Below, piece by piece: positions 4,504-19,469 of a stretch of DNA of 37,504 bases. Source of the DNA: Nitrospinota bacterium (GTDB lineage Bacteria; Nitrospirota; Nitrospiria; Nitrospirales; UBA8639); NCBI GenBank assembly GCA_022572725.1, contig JACZVJ010000018.1, positions 1-37,504 of the forward strand, read 5' to 3'. The stretch's first letter is position 1; the number at the start of each line of letters is the position of its first letter. The position numbers and the translations under genes are program-made. Under the pieces are notes generated by a model. That model worked only from the letters and a program-made list of their open reading frames with translations, did not search any database and was not told the origin of the DNA.

Positions 4504-5412
4504 CTAAGCATTTTGGCCTGCCAACTGCTTTTTCAGGGCAGCTTTTCTTTCTTTCTCCTTTGCCGTCATCTCTGCAATGAGTTCCTTGGCGGGTTCACTG
4601 ATATATTCCCTATAGGCAAACCGTTCGGTTGGCTTTTCAGCGTCCCGCATCTCCTGTAATCCTTCCATGCTGTTCTTTCCAATTTCGAGAATGCACGGAG
4701 TGTACAACTGAAGATAGGTTGGCCCGATTTCCCGAGCGATATAGATGGCATTTTTCACAACCTTTTCTATGAGGTTGGGTTTGCTCACGGTACAATTCAC
4801 CACATAGTGGCACCCAGACTCCCGCGCAATTTCCGGCAAACGCACTTTTTCAAAATGCTTTCCTATCGGGGCCATCTTCGCTACAAACCCCTTTTGCATC
4901 AGTCCGCTTTCTTGTCCGCCGGTGTTGGCGTACAGTTCATTATCAAAGCAAATGGTGGTGAATTTTTCCTGACGGAACCAGGCCTGCAGGGTCATATCCA
5001 ACCCAATATCCACTGTGGCCCCATCCCCGGCCAACACGACCACATCTTTGACCCTCCCAGGAAATCGAACGGTGAGGGCACGCTTGAGCCCTGATGCAAT
5101 AGCATTCTGATTTCCAAACAGCGAATGGATATTGTGAATCCCCACATGGGGGAACACCAAGCTTGTACACCCCGTCGATCCCACCATCACCGTATCTTCA
5201 GGATTCGGAAGGGAGGCAAGGATATACCGGAATGCCATTGATTCCGGGCATCCCGCGCACAACGAGTGTTCCTCGATTAATTCTTTGGAGGTTCCAATAT
5301 CTTTCCAGCCACGGGATTCGTTCCCATACGTGGCTTTTTGGACCAAGTCTTGGTACTCAGGCGGCATAATATCAAACATTTCTGGCGCGATCTTTATCCG
5401 TTCTAAACTCAT
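4504..5412 (-). CDS. porB: 2-oxoacid:ferredoxin oxidoreductase, beta (TPP-binding) subunit
   Basis: A 302-aa catalytic subunit. The thiamine pyrophosphate motif is seen as LAGDGATVDIG, followed by FDNELYANTGGQ, whose acidic and Asn residues coordinate Mg-TPP. Cysteines in LCAGCPES, GSTGCTS and VNCTV are the expected ligands of the proximal 4Fe-4S cluster. With alpha it carries out reversible ferredoxin-dependent carboxylation of an acyl-CoA. The ATG has an AGGAGG Shine-Dalgarno. A lysine- and glutamate-rich C-terminal helix (AKEKERKAALKKQL) is probably peripheral. Pyruvate versus 2-oxoglutarate specificity cannot be settled by eye. Confidence 0.9.
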   Translation of the reverse strand: MSLERIKIAPEMFDIMPPEYQDLVQKATYGNESRGWKDIGTSKELIEEHSLCAGCPESMAFRYILASLPNPEDTVMVGSTGCTSLVFPHVGIHNIHSLFGNQNAIASGLKRALTVRFPGRVKDVVVLAGDGATVDIGLDMTLQAWFRQEKFTTICFDNELYANTGGQESGLMQKGFVAKMAPIGKHFEKVRLPEIARESGCHYVVNCTVSKPNLIEKVVKNAIYIAREIGPTYLQLYTPCILEIGKNSMEGLQEMRDAEKPTERFAYREYISEPAKELIAEMTAKEKERKAALKKQLAGQNA

Positions 5413-5487
5413 TGGGTCCTCCTCTTCATCATTGTCCTAATCAAATTGATGTTTTCCCAGACTCTCAGAATTTTTACTCATCACCCC

Positions 5488-6693
5488 TCAGCTTCCCCGC
5501 CCAGCCATCGCAGCAACCTTTATCCCCAAAGCACCCTTGATGTGCTCGACAATGATCTCAGGCGGCATCGTCATTCCGCCACAAACACGTGGGCCTGTCA
5601 CCCGTTCGCTATTGGGGATGGTCGCCCTGATTTCCTTCGCCAGCCATCCTGTCACGTTGAACTCCGGCACAATGATGTGCTTGGCATTTTTGGTCGCTTC
5701 TCGGATTTCTTCATGGGGCCAAGGACGCAACACTTTGATTTTCACAATGCCCACCTCGATCCCTTCCTCTTCCAACAGGACCTTTGCTTCCCGACCCTGC
5801 GAAACGGCTGTTCCCGAGGCAACAAGGAGAACATCCGCATCAGGGTTCTCCACTTCAATGAGTCCATCCAACCATGCAATGGTGTGCTTGCGGGACCTTT
5901 CGGCCGCCGCCCAAATTTCCTGCTGCCAACTGGCATGGGTCGCGTAGCTGATATAGTTGCTCTTCATGACAAAGGGGTCCCGCATCATTCGAACTGGGGG
6001 GCATTCCATATCCATGCACGGAACAGGAGCCCGATACGGATCATACGGGGGCAGGCACATATCAACGGGCGTCAAATTGACCATGTCCTTCGTGTGGGTC
6101 ACAAAAAAGCCATCGCAACAAAGAGCAAGCGGAAGATGGACATCAGGCTCTTCAGTCACCATGAACCCCTTCAACATCCAATCATAGAAGTCTTGAGCGG
6201 ATTCAGCATGCCACACCAGCATCCCCGTATTCATGAGGTAGGAAATTTCCAACGTGTCCGGCTGAATGGACAACGGAGAATTAATCCCACGGCAGGTCAC
6301 AATCATCTGAATAGGGAGCCTCGCCCCCGCCCACATTGGGAAATTTTCCATCGCCCGCATGGTTCCCGGCCCAGCGGTCGTCGTGAAGACACGGGCTCCA
6401 CCAAAAGCTGCCCCAGCGCATTGACCCATGACAGCAAACTCACTTTCCCCTCTAAAGTAGTCCCCTATATAGCCTTCGGCAAATAACTCCCCAATGAGCG
6501 CTGCGGCTTCACTTTGAGGAGTGATGGGGTAGGCAATCATCACATCGACGTTCGCCCGCCGAATGGCCTCCTTAATGACCTCACTCCCAGTAAAAAAGCA
6601 GGGGGTTCGAGGTGCTTCATTCATCATATGCCATGGATCAGCAAAGACTTGACCCTTTTTATTTTTTGTTCCGATAACTGACTGGGTTGCCAT
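5488..6693 (-). CDS. porA: 2-oxoacid:ferredoxin oxidoreductase, alpha subunit
   Basis: A 401-aa alpha subunit. The substrate-pocket motif AYPITPQSE and the region GESEFAVMGQCAGAAFGGARVFTTT are family signatures, and a transketolase C-terminal-like domain (ADVLLVASGTAVSQGREAK to VLRPWPHEEI) follows. It pairs with the TPP subunit encoded 75 nt downstream. The start is firmly set by TAAGGAGG nine bases before the ATG. It is separated from the preceding operon gene by 169 nt that includes a run of eight T residues, so it may also have its own transcript. Confidence 0.9.
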   Translation of the reverse strand: MATQSVIGTKNKKGQVFADPWHMMNEAPRTPCFFTGSEVIKEAIRRANVDVMIAYPITPQSEAAALIGELFAEGYIGDYFRGESEFAVMGQCAGAAFGGARVFTTTAGPGTMRAMENFPMWAGARLPIQMIVTCRGINSPLSIQPDTLEISYLMNTGMLVWHAESAQDFYDWMLKGFMVTEEPDVHLPLALCCDGFFVTHTKDMVNLTPVDMCLPPYDPYRAPVPCMDMECPPVRMMRDPFVMKSNYISYATHASWQQEIWAAAERSRKHTIAWLDGLIEVENPDADVLLVASGTAVSQGREAKVLLEEEGIEVGIVKIKVLRPWPHEEIREATKNAKHIIVPEFNVTGWLAKEIRATIPNSERVTGPRVCGGMTMPPEIIVEHIKGALGIKVAAMAGRGS

Positions 6694-13300: not shown

Positions 13301-15394
13301 ATGTACAAGACGATATATATCCCGGTTGACAATTCCGACCATTCCAACATGGCCGTCGATCTGGGTGTGAAACTGGCAAAGGAATTCGGCTCCAAAATTG
13401 TGGGAAGCCATGTGTACGCGGCCAAGATGCATGATAAGCGGTTTAAGCAAATGGAAGCCGGCTTACCTGAGGAGTACCACGACGAAAAAGAATTGGATCG
13501 GCAGCGTCAAATCCACGATTCTTTGATTACCCGAGGCCTCCAAATCATCACCGACTCTTATCTTGACTACGTCGACAAAAAATGTTCGGAGGCTAATCTT
13601 CCCCTTGAACGACGTGCTTTGGAGGGCCGCAATTGGAAAGTTCTGGCTGAGGACATTAATACGAATGGATACGACCTGACCATCATGGGAGCGTTGGGCG
13701 TGGGGGCTGTTAAGGATTCCGTCATCGGGAGTAATACGGAACGGGTCTTACGGCGGGTGCGGACCTCAGACATGCTCATTATCAAAGATCTCCAGCCTAT
13801 GAATGGGGGAAAAATCGTCGTGGCCGTAGATGGAAGCCCCTATTCTTTTGGAGGCCTTAAAACTGGCCTTGCCCTGGGTAAAGCTTTAAACAAGACCGTG
13901 GAGGCCATCTCAGCTTTCGATCCTTACTTCCATTATGCGGCGTTTCACAGTATTTCCGGAGTCCTGAATGAAGAGGCCGGAAAAGTCTTTCGTTTTAAGG
14001 AACAGGAAAAGCTTCATGAAGAAATCATCGACAGCGGCCTGGCCAAGATCTACCAGTCTCATCTCGATATCTCACGTGAAGTTGCCCAGGATGAAGGAAC
14101 GGACATCCGGACGACCCTTTTGGATGGAAAGGCCTTCGAGAAACTCCTTCAGTACGTTCGGAAGGAACAGCCGTGGCTCTTGATTTTAGGGCGCATTGGC
14201 GTGCATAGCGACGATGATATGGACATCGGCAGCAACACGGAAAATCTTCTTCGAATTGCCCCCTGTAATATTCTTATCTCCAATCAAAAATTCGTCCCAC
14301 CCATTGACGTACAGGCGGAATATACCATCGCCTGGACCGAAGAAGCGCTTCTCCGCATGGAAAAAGTCCCGGTTTTTGCTCGCGGGGTCGCCAAAACAGC
14401 CATTCACCGATATGCGATTGAAAAGGGACATACCATTATCAGTAATACGATTGTCGATGCCGCCGTCGGGGACATTCTACCCAAAGGCGCCCTAGACGCC
14501 ATGAAAGCTCTCGGGGGACAACTGGATGCGGCTGGAATTGACCGAAACAAAATGCAAGCTGACGAGGCCGTGGCCAGTGACCTCATGGGGTCGACTCTCA
14601 GCGGCATGATGAATCAAATCGTCGAAGAAAAGCCTTCGTCGGATCGTCCAGCGGTCAGCGCCAGTACCCAGGCCTATTTAGATCGAATGTCTCGAAACTA
14701 TTACGTCTGCAATGGGTGTGGCTACATCGGAAAAGGGGATGCCCCGGTCAAATGTCCTATCTGCGGAGGAGCCGGAGACGGATTCAAAATCGTTGACAAG
14801 AGCATCTTTGAGGCAGCGGCAAAGACTGAAGGGACACTGGAAACCCAAATGTCCTACGATGACGTTCCCATGCAATGGACCAAGGATGCAAAAGAAGCTA
14901 TCCGGGCGGTTCCTGCCGGGTTTCAACGAAGGCGAGCCAAGGCTAAGATTGAAAAATCGTCCCGCAAGCTGGGCATGACCACCATTACTCTGGCATATGC
15001 TGGTCCGATGATTCAGGAGGCAGCTTCCGAGGAATACACCCCCATTTTCGCCAATAAGACCCCTTCCTCTTCAGATGCTGACACCCAACACCAACCGGCA
15101 AACAATGGAGACTCGCAAAATCGTGAGGAAGCTTCACCCTATACCTGGGAGCCGGACGCCCTTCAGAGGCTGGAACGGGCTCCCGAAGGTTTCATGCGAG
15201 ATTGTACCCGCGCGCTTATATTGAAACACGCAGAGAAGCTTGGGACGACCTCCATCACGCTCGAAGTGGCGAATGAAGGCATCGACCAAGCCAAGGAGAC
15301 CATGGAAGAAGCGATGAAAACCGGGAATCTGAAAGAGATCGTTGCTCGCCTGACAGGTGTAGGTGCGGGGTCAGGAGCAAACCCCAATGGGTAA
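13301..15394 (+). CDS. universal stress protein / rubredoxin-like / PCP_red multidomain protein
   Basis: A 697-aa protein with an unusual domain order. Two UspA domains (about 1-162 and 168-328) each keep the nucleotide-binding signature, as GALGVGAVKDSVIGSNTE and GRIGVHSDDDMDIGSNTE. Next comes a helical PCP_red-like domain (about 343-387, WTEEALLRMEKVPVFARG), then a rubredoxin-type metal site with CxxC pairs C470/C473 and C485/C488. Two further PCP_red domains follow (about 525-570 and 614-657). PCP_red is the C-terminal domain of the light-independent protochlorophyllide reductase B subunit. The start is set by AAGGAGG. The gene overlaps the next by 8 nt. A redox-sensing or electron-delivery partner for the radical SAM protein is an inference. 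Confidence 0.85.
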   Translation: MYKTIYIPVDNSDHSNMAVDLGVKLAKEFGSKIVGSHVYAAKMHDKRFKQMEAGLPEEYHDEKELDRQRQIHDSLITRGLQIITDSYLDYVDKKCSEANLPLERRALEGRNWKVLAEDINTNGYDLTIMGALGVGAVKDSVIGSNTERVLRRVRTSDMLIIKDLQPMNGGKIVVAVDGSPYSFGGLKTGLALGKALNKTVEAISAFDPYFHYAAFHSISGVLNEEAGKVFRFKEQEKLHEEIIDSGLAKIYQSHLDISREVAQDEGTDIRTTLLDGKAFEKLLQYVRKEQPWLLILGRIGVHSDDDMDIGSNTENLLRIAPCNILISNQKFVPPIDVQAEYTIAWTEEALLRMEKVPVFARGVAKTAIHRYAIEKGHTIISNTIVDAAVGDILPKGALDAMKALGGQLDAAGIDRNKMQADEAVASDLMGSTLSGMMNQIVEEKPSSDRPAVSASTQAYLDRMSRNYYVCNGCGYIGKGDAPVKCPICGGAGDGFKIVDKSIFEAAAKTEGTLETQMSYDDVPMQWTKDAKEAIRAVPAGFQRRRAKAKIEKSSRKLGMTTITLAYAGPMIQEAASEEYTPIFANKTPSSSDADTQHQPANNGDSQNREEASPYTWEPDALQRLERAPEGFMRDCTRALILKHAEKLGTTSITLEVANEGIDQAKETMEEAMKTGNLKEIVARLTGVGAGSGANPNG

Positions 15395-16763
15395 ATCCCT
15401 TCCAGTCCTGAATCTCCAATTACATGAAAGCAAGCTTGACGTTCTCGAAAGCCAAGTCACTCAGTTTTCGACCCCTTCCCGCATTCCCCAGGATGGCCGG
15501 ACCGTCGATGACTTTAAGCCCTACCTCATTGCTTTAAATCTCACCAAGCGGTGCAATCTCAAATGTGCGCATTGCTATTTGGATGCCACCACAAAGGCCG
15601 GTGGAGGCTCCGATGAGCTCACAACTGAGGAATGTTACCGGTTAATCCAGCAAATTGCTGAAGTGAATCAAGGGTGCCTCCTGGTCATCACCGGGGGGGA
15701 ACCTCTGGTTCGTCCTGATATTCTTGACATTGCCCGCCACGCCGTGAGCGTTGGGCTCACGGTCGTCTTCGGGACCAATGGCATGTTGATCAATGACCGG
15801 ATGGCGAAAGACCTGGTGAGCATCGGGGTCATGGGGGCGGGTATTAGCATTGATTCGTTGGATCCAGAAAAACACGATAAATTCCGTGGCCTTCAAGGAG
15901 CATGGAAAGGAGCGGTGGCGGGAATCGAAGCCTGTAAACGAAATGGGCTGCAGTTTCAGATTCATTTTAGCGCCCAGCCGATGAATTACCGTGAACTCCC
16001 CGATGTGGTCGAATGGGCCCACCAAATAGAAGCCCGCGTCCTGAACGTCTTTTTCATGGTCTGCACAGGTCGGGGGGAGGAACTCACGGATATTAAGCCC
16101 GAACAATACGAAGAGGTGTTGACCTTTCTCATCGACTGTCAGGACAAATACAAGGACATGCTGGTCCGAGCCCGGTGCGCACCACACTTTAAACGATTGG
16201 CTTACGAGAAAGACCCCAACTCACCAATCACAAAGGCTCAGGGGTACATGGGTGGAGGGTGTCTGGCGGGAACCAATTATGCCCGGGTCACACCAAATGG
16301 TGACCTCACCCCTTGTCCGTACATGCCTTTGTCAGCGGGTAACATTCGCCAGAATAGTTTTAAGGATTTATGGGAAAAGTCCGATATTTTTGATTCATTC
16401 CGCTACCCACACCTCAAGGGTAAATGCGGGGAGTGCGAATACAGCGAGATTTGCGGGGGATGCCGCGCGCGTCCCTACGTGGACCACGGAGACTGGTTGG
16501 ACGAAGACCAGTGGTGTTTATACACACCCAAAGGAGGAGAAAAGGTCAAGGTGGCCTTCAACGTTCCAGAAGAAACCTCGGTGGTGTGGGACGAGGCAAC
16601 GCAAACACGCTTGAACCGGATTCCCTATTTCTTGCGCGCGATGGTGAAAAAAGGTGTGGAACGCCACGCCAGCGAACACGGCATCCCGGTCATTACGGTG
16701 GAGCTCATGGAAGAGCTCAGGAAGAAGCGCTTTGGGAGCGAGAAGCCTGTGTTTAAATTTTAA
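15387..16763 (+). CDS. radical SAM/SPASM protein with C-terminal PCP_red domain
   Basis: A 458-aa protein from the ATG at 15387 (AGGAG nine bases upstream; a GTG at 15363 is possible but poorer). The radical SAM cluster motif is CNLKCAHC (C56, C60, C63), followed by ITGGEPLVRPD. A SPASM region has cysteines in GGGCLAG, TPCPYMP and CGECEYSEICGGCRARP for auxiliary 4Fe-4S clusters. This layout is that of the NirJ/AhbD group, which modify tetrapyrrole side chains, and of peptide-modifying enzymes. The C-terminal 50 residues (VVWDEATQTRLNRIPYFLRAMV) form a PCP_red-like domain, a domain shared with the preceding gene product. The substrate is unknown. Confidence 0.88.
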   Translation: MGKSLPVLNLQLHESKLDVLESQVTQFSTPSRIPQDGRTVDDFKPYLIALNLTKRCNLKCAHCYLDATTKAGGGSDELTTEECYRLIQQIAEVNQGCLLVITGGEPLVRPDILDIARHAVSVGLTVVFGTNGMLINDRMAKDLVSIGVMGAGISIDSLDPEKHDKFRGLQGAWKGAVAGIEACKRNGLQFQIHFSAQPMNYRELPDVVEWAHQIEARVLNVFFMVCTGRGEELTDIKPEQYEEVLTFLIDCQDKYKDMLVRARCAPHFKRLAYEKDPNSPITKAQGYMGGGCLAGTNYARVTPNGDLTPCPYMPLSAGNIRQNSFKDLWEKSDIFDSFRYPHLKGKCGECEYSEICGGCRARPYVDHGDWLDEDQWCLYTPKGGEKVKVAFNVPEETSVVWDEATQTRLNRIPYFLRAMVKKGVERHASEHGIPVITVELMEELRKKRFGSEKPVFKF

Positions 16764-17290
16764 TGAGTGCTCTCCAAGAGTTCCTCTCCGACGTCAATAA
16801 AGTCACACCGATTCTTGTTCATTGGTTGCATCTCCTGTCCGCCATCGTGTGGATCGGTGGCTTGGCCTTCCTGGTGATGGCTGTCACCCCTGGCCTCCGC
16901 ACGTCGGTTCCCAAAGAATTCATCAAACCCATTTGTGACACATTCTATAAACAGTATCGCCGGGTGGTGGGAATCCTCTTGGTTGTGATTTTATTTACTG
17001 GGGGGATAAACCTCCACTACGTTGGAGAACTCATGGTAGCCCAAACAGGAACAGGGCTGACTCACAACGCGAAATATCTCATCGTGCTTTTCATAAAATT
17101 GGCCCTCGTCCTGGGAATCCTGACAGTGTTTCTGTACACCGTGATTTTTCGGACCGAGCAGACTGGAGAAGAGACTCCAGAAGAAAAGGAGGAGCAGGTC
17201 GTTGAACCGATCCCTTTTCAGCAAGGCGCCCTGTGGATGGGGGTTTTTATCATCCTTTGTGCCGCTACAATGAAACACCTTCACACATAA
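16763..17290 (+). CDS. CopD-like/DUF2269-type membrane protein
   Basis: A 175-aa integral membrane protein with four predicted membrane helices (about 13-40, 68-92, 108-132 and 155-172). The first helix carries HWLHLLSAIVWIGG, whose paired histidines are typical of CopD and related haem- or copper-binding membrane proteins; a charged cytoplasmic-type loop (EETPEEKEEQ) separates helices 3 and 4. Its ATG overlaps the stop of the radical SAM gene (TAATG), so the three genes are surely co-transcribed. It may anchor the pathway at the membrane or handle haem; that is an inference. Confidence 0.75.
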   Translation: MSALQEFLSDVNKVTPILVHWLHLLSAIVWIGGLAFLVMAVTPGLRTSVPKEFIKPICDTFYKQYRRVVGILLVVILFTGGINLHYVGELMVAQTGTGLTHNAKYLIVLFIKLALVLGILTVFLYTVIFRTEQTGEETPEEKEEQVVEPIPFQQGALWMGVFIILCAATMKHLHT

Positions 17291-19064: not shown

Positions 19065-19469
19065 ATGAACATTCCCATCCGCTTGCTTCTTTTGACTACA
19101 CTCCCAGCGTGGCTGGCGATCCCAGCCCCTGGTTTCGGCTCGGGTTCACAGACCGGAGACCAGAGCAACGGCCAAGCGATTTACCACCTCCATTGTGAAG
19201 CCTGTCATGGCGAAAATGGGAGGGGCGATGGCCCCCGAGCCCCATTTCTTGCCCCGAAACCGGGAAACTTCGTTTCGGCAGCGACCTCTGCCAAATCAGA
19301 CGAAGAACTGCTGGAGATCATCGCAAACGGCACACCAAGGACGTCCATGAAAGGGTGGGTGGAGACATTCACCGAACAGGAACGCAGGGACGTGTTAGCC
19401 TACATCCGCTCCTTTGTTCGCTTCCAACCGCGTTCACTCACCCCACCCCCTCCAGGATCTCCCCAATAA
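19065..19469 (+). CDS. small periplasmic cytochrome c
   Basis: A 134-aa secreted protein. A signal peptide (residues 1 to about 25, hydrophobic core LLLLTTLPAWLAI) precedes a single class I cytochrome c domain with the haem motif CEACH (44-48). The segment GTPRTSMKGW carries the likely axial methionine M95, and the C-terminal helix ERRDVLAYIRSF is typical. The Pro-rich tail is dispensable. It follows der by 82 nt on the same strand but is functionally unrelated. A role as electron carrier in the respiratory chain is expected; its partner is unknown. Confidence 0.88.
   Translation: MNIPIRLLLLTTLPAWLAIPAPGFGSGSQTGDQSNGQAIYHLHCEACHGENGRGDGPRAPFLAPKPGNFVSAATSAKSDEELLEIIANGTPRTSMKGWVETFTEQERRDVLAYIRSFVRFQPRSLTPPPPGSPQ

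Follow-up and report, generated by a model that had tools for sequence, protein, structure and literature searches.

A conserved tandem-Usp, radical SAM and CopD-like gene trio with PCP_red domains in Nitrospira-type bacteria and its probable role in tetrapyrrole chemistry

Our study of a 37,504-nucleotide stretch of DNA from a Nitrospinota bacterium of the order Nitrospirales (the window; contig C178 of the 3.17-Mb genome G000) revealed three overlapping genes, encoding a protein with two universal stress protein (Usp) domains, three PCP_red domains and a rubredoxin-like site (gene 1), a radical SAM/SPASM enzyme that itself ends in a PCP_red domain (gene 2, hereafter rSAM) and a CopD-like membrane protein (gene 3). 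This three-gene unit was carried by nearly all of the Nitrospira-type nitrifying bacteria checked. Each component domain is known (radical SAM, SPASM, Usp, rubredoxin, PCP_red), and together they seem to form an enzyme system not yet described, probably one of tetrapyrrole (heme) chemistry; in the open-licence literature we found no description of the combination, of its conservation or of the fused and clustered PCP_red network presented below, and no relevant paper on PCP_red. The best explanation, which we hold tentatively and put at a little less than an even chance, is a PCP_red-scaffolded, nucleotide-gated radical SAM complex that acts on a tetrapyrrole and has the three genes as its core.

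In 74 of 74 testable named Nitrospira-type loci the rSAM gene was immediately preceded by the gene for the Usp/PCP_red protein, and in 76 of 76 it was immediately followed by the CopD-like gene, in each case in the same orientation. The constancy of order and strand indicates that the arrangement is not due to chance. A preliminary description of this DNA had reported three overlapping genes with this domain set as an operon; its coordinates hold, Pfam agrees for Usp, PCP_red, Radical_SAM and SPASM, the PCP_red domains that it had recognized in two of the proteins exceed the profile cut-off in both, and the genes proved to be neighbours in relatives. The rSAM was 78–85 % identical in two families of the order, f1 (the family of the window, 24 genomes) and f3, and across 80 named Nitrospirota loci, mostly Nitrospira, and about 70 % identical in family f2. 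Absences given here are based upon profile searches, and the scans reaching beyond Nitrospirota were the search of named loci and the plasmid searches. Beyond the class, families f14, f20, f28 and f37 keep a tandem-Usp gene followed by the rSAM-PCP_red gene, without the rubredoxin cysteines and, in f28, without PCP_red in the Usp protein; the pairs inspected there showed neither a CopD-like gene nor a rubredoxin domain. Tandem Usp and rSAM-PCP_red therefore constitute the ancestral core, to which, judging by this distribution, the rubredoxin site and the CopD-like gene would have been added later in Nitrospirales and near relatives.

Gene 1 matched Usp twice (5e-30) and PCP_red three times (1e-28, over cut-off) in Pfam. 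Its tandem Usp half found UspE and the ATP-bound TTHA0350 as top structural matches in a fold search, and the ATP-type motif G-2x-G-9x-G(S/T) was present in the first domain of 76 of the 82 orthologues and in the second domain of 81. UspE, TTHA0350 and Rv2623 likewise have two Usp domains per chain with these motifs, whereas the gene 1 protein adds a rubredoxin-like site and three PCP_red domains and is encoded alongside a radical SAM enzyme. The intact motifs and the fold suggest that the protein binds ATP, which makes the responsiveness to nucleotides proposed earlier plausible. The rubredoxin site of the preliminary description stood as to its cysteines, as the CxxCG...CPxC pattern was kept in 82 of 82 orthologues, but not as to its Pfam score, the RUBY_RBDX match (residues 468–495, 5e-5) reaching 23.1 bits against a cut-off of 26.5. 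At locus L129 (4560–7982) and the loci of genus g3, the Usp/PCP_red and rSAM genes share a frame, with one TAG and two codons between them.

Gene 3 had been described as a His-bearing CopD-like membrane protein. The histidines were confirmed, with H20, H23, W30, K112 and H174 kept in 30 of 30 sequences, but the CopD match (PF05425) remained below cut-off (28.2 versus 32.1 bits). The protein was modelled with four helices (predicted local distance difference test, pLDDT, 83), and a fold search with this model gave no solved match below an E value of 0.5. CopD- and HemJ-type proteins are likewise small, four-helix membrane proteins, and gene 3 has a His pair in helix 1 and a conserved Lys and His; the likeness to HemJ is our presumption, as Pfam gave no match to PF03653 at E 0.01.

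Gene 2 matched Radical_SAM (7e-23), SPASM (2e-10) and PCP_red (3e-13, over cut-off). Its best NCBIfam models were NirJ2 (TIGR04055, 326 bits) and AhbD (TIGR04545, 308.4 bits), both with cut-offs of 500 bits. It has the radical SAM/SPASM architecture of AhbD and NirJ2 and shares with AhbD all cluster cysteines, the TGRG motif and the C272-APH (CAPH) motif, including C272, C300, C318 and C367, which are missing from the TIGR04053 paralogue encoded in this genome. The enzyme would carry one SAM-cleaving [4Fe-4S] cluster and probably two auxiliary ones. It differs from AhbD and NirJ2 in its C-terminal PCP_red domain, in its Usp partner, in having HCYL and CAPHFKR where AhbD has HCRA and CAPHYYR, and in its phylogeny: by maximum likelihood, all PCP_red-rSAMs of this type formed their own long-branch clade (100/100) beside, yet outside, AhbD/NirJ2, and outside both AhbD above cut-off and the common AhbD-like enzymes of the phylum, in trees whose deep placements are uncertain owing to long branches. 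The earlier designation as NirJ/AhbD-like agrees with the models, the shared motifs and this position. A plasmid search with the rSAM returned TIGR04053-type or other radical SAM enzymes only, at <60 % identity.

The closest solved folds to the rSAM were SkfB, PqqE and SuiB, enzymes of the type that modifies ribosomally synthesized and post-translationally modified peptides (RiPPs). These matches, together with the strict gene neighbourhood, would fit a peptide- or protein-modifying SPASM enzyme with the Usp/PCP_red or CopD-like protein as its substrate or chaperone. However, a sequence search of the PDB turned up no AhbD or NirJ structure, so RiPP-type fold matches were to be expected anyway; the AhbD and NirJ2 models outscored the RiPP models by far; and no gene for a conserved short peptide was observed within the operon, although no dedicated search for short open reading frames (ORFs) was made. 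We therefore regard a peptide substrate as decidedly unlikely.

Among gene neighbourhoods, the best evidence for tetrapyrrole chemistry came from a single family, f20, in which HemY (TIGR00562, 290–305 bits against a cut-off of 97.85) is encoded directly downstream of the rSAM. In genome G097 a second HemY adjoins a second Usp/PCP_red operon, and genome G066 has a separate hemE-hemH-hemY operon with a gene between hemE and hemH that is HemN-like by eye. Among Nitrospirales relatives, profile searches found HemY, ChdC-family proteins in 39 of 40, no HemF, and HemN above cut-off in one f4 genome only, which points to the coproporphyrin-dependent route; ChdC would supply its last step, so that the route could do without an AhbD-type enzyme. 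Families f14 (G060, G077), f28 (G275) and f37 (G220) hold AhbD or an AhbD-like protein together with the PCP_red-rSAM. Coexistence with AhbD or ChdC makes a distinct role likelier than plain heme synthesis, and a simple heme synthase was rejected on these grounds and on that of the separate clade. A narrower possibility is that the rSAM has AhbD function, as an oxygen-independent coproheme decarboxylase, and serves microaerobic Nitrospira as a back-up for ChdC. The AhbD-type sequence agrees with this, as does coproheme being an intermediate of the Nitrospirales route, and the phylum seems to use AhbD-type enzymes for that route, given the AhbD-HemE-HemH-HemY operon of f37 (L292 5682–10333), a coproporphyrin-dependent pathway in which AhbD is likely the last step. 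The separate clade, the replaced motifs and the four genomes that hold AhbD or an AhbD-like protein as well as the rSAM nevertheless make such a back-up role quite unlikely. Canonical ferrochelatase (PF00762) was not found in 24 of 24 f1 genomes, despite their HemY and ChdC-family genes; HemE was seen beside HemY in f1, and the f2–f4 relatives mostly have ferrochelatase, often adjoining HemY.

The PCP_red domain extended well beyond the trio. Profile searches found 12 PCP_red domains in the genome of the window, in five proteins on four contigs; the genomes of most members of the class likewise contain about 12 copies. No BchB/ChlB-like ORF was among these proteins, in line with the preliminary description, which had noted PCP_red in the absence of chlorophyll genes and is refined here in that the domain is not confined to two proteins. 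Chlorophyll biosynthesis was rejected as an explanation because PCP_red was not on any BchB-like ORF of this genome. The domain is held in common with subunit B (BchB/ChlB) of the light-independent protochlorophyllide reductase (DPOR), where it has been solved as 2kru (relative 2l09, Asr4154). In contrast to BchB/ChlB, the trio bears it on a radical SAM enzyme and a Usp protein; the alignment to the BchB model spanned about 50 residues, and Pfam gave PCP_red and no nitrogenase-like catalytic domain. Family f18 has a second, AhbD-type radical SAM enzyme that keeps the AhbD motifs and bears its own C-terminal PCP_red domain (37.4 bits, over cut-off) outside the rSAM clade, from which it follows that PCP_red joined heme-type radical SAM enzymes at least twice, besides DPOR. 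This enzyme (L289 3583–4971, L290 990–2378) is the apparent AhbD candidate of those genomes.

Other PCP_red proteins of the genome are one on contig C51 with two PCP_red domains, adjoining an Mrp/ApbC-type ATPase, a multi-PCP_red protein on C46 and a Cys-bearing two-PCP_red protein on C89. In f20 the rSAM-PCP_red enzyme (706 and 716 residues in total) has a C-terminal extension orthologous to the C46 protein (44 % identity over 252 residues, E 8e-74; 41 % over 290 residues). In f6 a single 10-kb stretch holds Usp-PCP_red, rSAM-PCP_red and CopD-like genes converging on a second group, which encodes multi-PCP_red, Haem_oxygenas_2 (diiron, PqqC/TenA-like), two-PCP_red, Mrp/ApbC and DUF420 proteins. 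This fusion, of the Rosetta-stone kind, and this clustering tie the other PCP_red proteins to the operon. They also lend support to the physical interaction that had been proposed from the shared domain, and the domain itself suggests that the proteins associate. A plasmid search with the multi-PCP_red protein found nothing. Several further arrangements were seen. The C89 protein is clustered (L011 3320–8555, G000:C89) with a BchU-like methyltransferase, DUF420, a membrane protein and subunit I of a bd-type oxidase. An arrangement that recurs phylum-wide has an Mrp/ApbC-type ATPase first and a PCP_red protein second, with Haem_oxygenas_2 and multi-PCP_red proteins often coming next (L009 6632–8372, L205 6866–10487, L210, L211, L208, L209). 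In f27 (L201 7874–9884, L202, L212) a stand-alone PCP_red protein is encoded between a B12-binding radical SAM enzyme and a gene that by eye resembles leuD.

The range of these neighbours (Mrp/ApbC ATPases, the bd-type oxidase cluster, B12-binding radical SAM enzymes) and the tandem Usp could also indicate that PCP_red is a generic helical docking module, in a system that is mainly a stress-responsive regulator or iron–sulphur (Fe-S) maturation complex whose rSAM has a housekeeping target unrelated to tetrapyrroles. The catalytic motifs of the rSAM were all intact in 97 of 97 orthologues, and its identity across two families is that expected for a conserved catalytic step; this is the least probable of the alternatives that we weighed.

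Among the Nitrospira-type loci with enough upstream sequence, 49 of 58 had genes for MpqE (NF052510, over cut-off) and a B12-binding radical SAM enzyme related to slr0320 directly upstream of the trio on the same strand. Nitrospira use methyl-plastoquinones (PMC12324825), and slr0320 has been proposed as a plastoquinone methylator (PMC8065906). This neighbourhood would be accounted for if the rSAM worked with MpqE and the slr0320-like enzyme in making methyl-plastoquinone or in regulating its synthesis. However, in f1 the pair is located away from the trio (G000:C92; L297 6349–8927), and the phylum profiles differ, with f14, f28 and f37 having the rSAM without MpqE and f13 and f21 MpqE without the rSAM. 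We consider this role unlikely, if somewhat less so than the other alternatives, and an obligate quinone enzyme was rejected because the phylogenetic profile does not follow MpqE outside the class. The adjacency may instead come from common regulation of respiratory-chain genes and not from a joint pathway. MpqE and the B12-binding enzyme formed a constant pair, and the latter is a candidate for the quinone C-methyltransferase that introduces the additional methyl group of methyl-plastoquinone.

In the PCP_red-scaffolded complex that we favour, the tandem Usp protein would sense ATP/ADP as a nucleotide-gated adaptor and, via PCP_red contacts, license or position the rSAM. The PCP_red modules of the Usp protein, the rSAM and the multi-PCP_red and Cys-bearing two-PCP_red proteins would hold the complex together. 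The rSAM would perform AhbD/NirJ-type chemistry, most likely an oxidative decarboxylation or similar side-chain reaction on heme or a porphyrin. The Mrp/ApbC ATPase and the Cys-bearing protein may supply or reduce Fe-S clusters, and the rubredoxin site and CopD-like protein of Nitrospirales probably pass electrons between the auxiliary clusters and the membrane (quinone) pool. A tetrapyrrole was preferred as substrate because AhbD and NirJ2 are the best models, HemY adjoins the rSAM in f20, f18 has an AhbD-type PCP_red fusion and DPOR, which contains PCP_red, is a tetrapyrrole reductase. A broader version, which we judge quite improbable, is a PCP_red-assembled, tandem-Usp-gated Nitrospirota pathway for making or installing an altered heme or chlorin, for instance one used by bd-like oxidases, joined in some families by a HemY paralogue.

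Several observations weigh against the favoured complex. The rSAM scores fall far under the 500-bit equivalog cut-offs, whereas AhbD proteins of the same phylum score 516–535 bits on the AhbD model, and function transfer is therefore not licensed. HemY adjacency was limited to f20, with no consistent heme gene beside the rSAM in the class; the conserved upstream neighbours in Nitrospira are quinone-related; and f4 and f5 have rSAM-PCP_red without neighbouring Usp or CopD-like genes. In the structure prediction advised earlier, the single domains were modelled well, but the adjacent Usp/PCP_red and rSAM proteins were not placed confidently relative to each other (AlphaFold2 on the L129 read-through, with the in-frame TAG modelled as Q and 70 alignment rows; predicted TM-score, pTM, 0.42), and an interface therefore cannot be claimed.

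The features of the trio are given in Table 1. ATG 15387 is more likely than GTG 15363 as the start of gene 2, the overlap with gene 1 then being 8 nt, as in several orthologues (L042, L045). An Rfam search of the window found one tRNA alone and no known riboswitch, and promoter-like matches were at chance level. The window also encodes 2-oxoacid:ferredoxin oxidoreductase subunits and a cytochrome c (4504–6693 and 19065–19469); the best NCBIfam matches of the latter include cytochrome 579, below cut-off.

Table 1. Positions of the three genes and their domains and motifs in the window
Feature	Position	Strand	Basis
Gene 1, Usp-Usp-PCP_red-rubredoxin-PCP_red-PCP_red protein, 697 aa	13301..15394	+	ORF, Pfam, neighbourhood
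Usp domain 1 (aa 1–156), ATP-type motif GALG-x9-GS	13301..13768	+	PF00582
Usp domain 2 (about aa 170–327), motif GRIG-x9-GS	13808..14281	+	PF00582, second stretch
PCP_red domain 1 of gene 1	14333..14464	+	PF08369, 51.6 bits
Rubredoxin-like site, C470-C473 and C485-C488	14702..14785	+	PF21349, 23.1 bits, below cut-off
PCP_red domain 2 of gene 1	14876..14995	+	PF08369, 35.7 bits, over cut-off
PCP_red domain 3 of gene 1	15146..15271	+	PF08369, 30.3 bits, alone just under cut-off
Gene 2, radical SAM/SPASM/PCP_red enzyme (rSAM)	15387..16763	+	ORF, opening at GTG 15363 (466 aa from GTG)
CX3CX2C radical SAM cluster motif (C64, C68, C71)	15552..15575	+	Invariant, 97/97 orthologues
SPASM region, seven-cysteine pattern C300-x17-C318...C355-x2-C358-x5-C364-x2-C367-x17-C385	16260..16520	+	PF13186; pattern in 97/97
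C-terminal PCP_red domain of rSAM	16587..16721	+	PF08369, 54.5 bits
Gene 3, CopD-like four-helix membrane protein, 175 aa	16763..17290	+	ORF; 1-nt overlap with gene 2

In summary, the near-universal presence of this unit in Nitrospira-type nitrite and complete ammonia oxidizers, with its highly conserved rSAM, probably marks an important step in hosts that are not yet genetically manipulable. The PCP_red module, which takes its name from chlorophyll synthesis, is plentiful in organisms that are not phototrophs and occurs recurrently on heme-type radical SAM enzymes and their partners, and the unit gives a testable handle on the role of this domain in DPOR too. The trio is thus a concrete candidate for tetrapyrrole or electron-transfer chemistry in nitrifiers.

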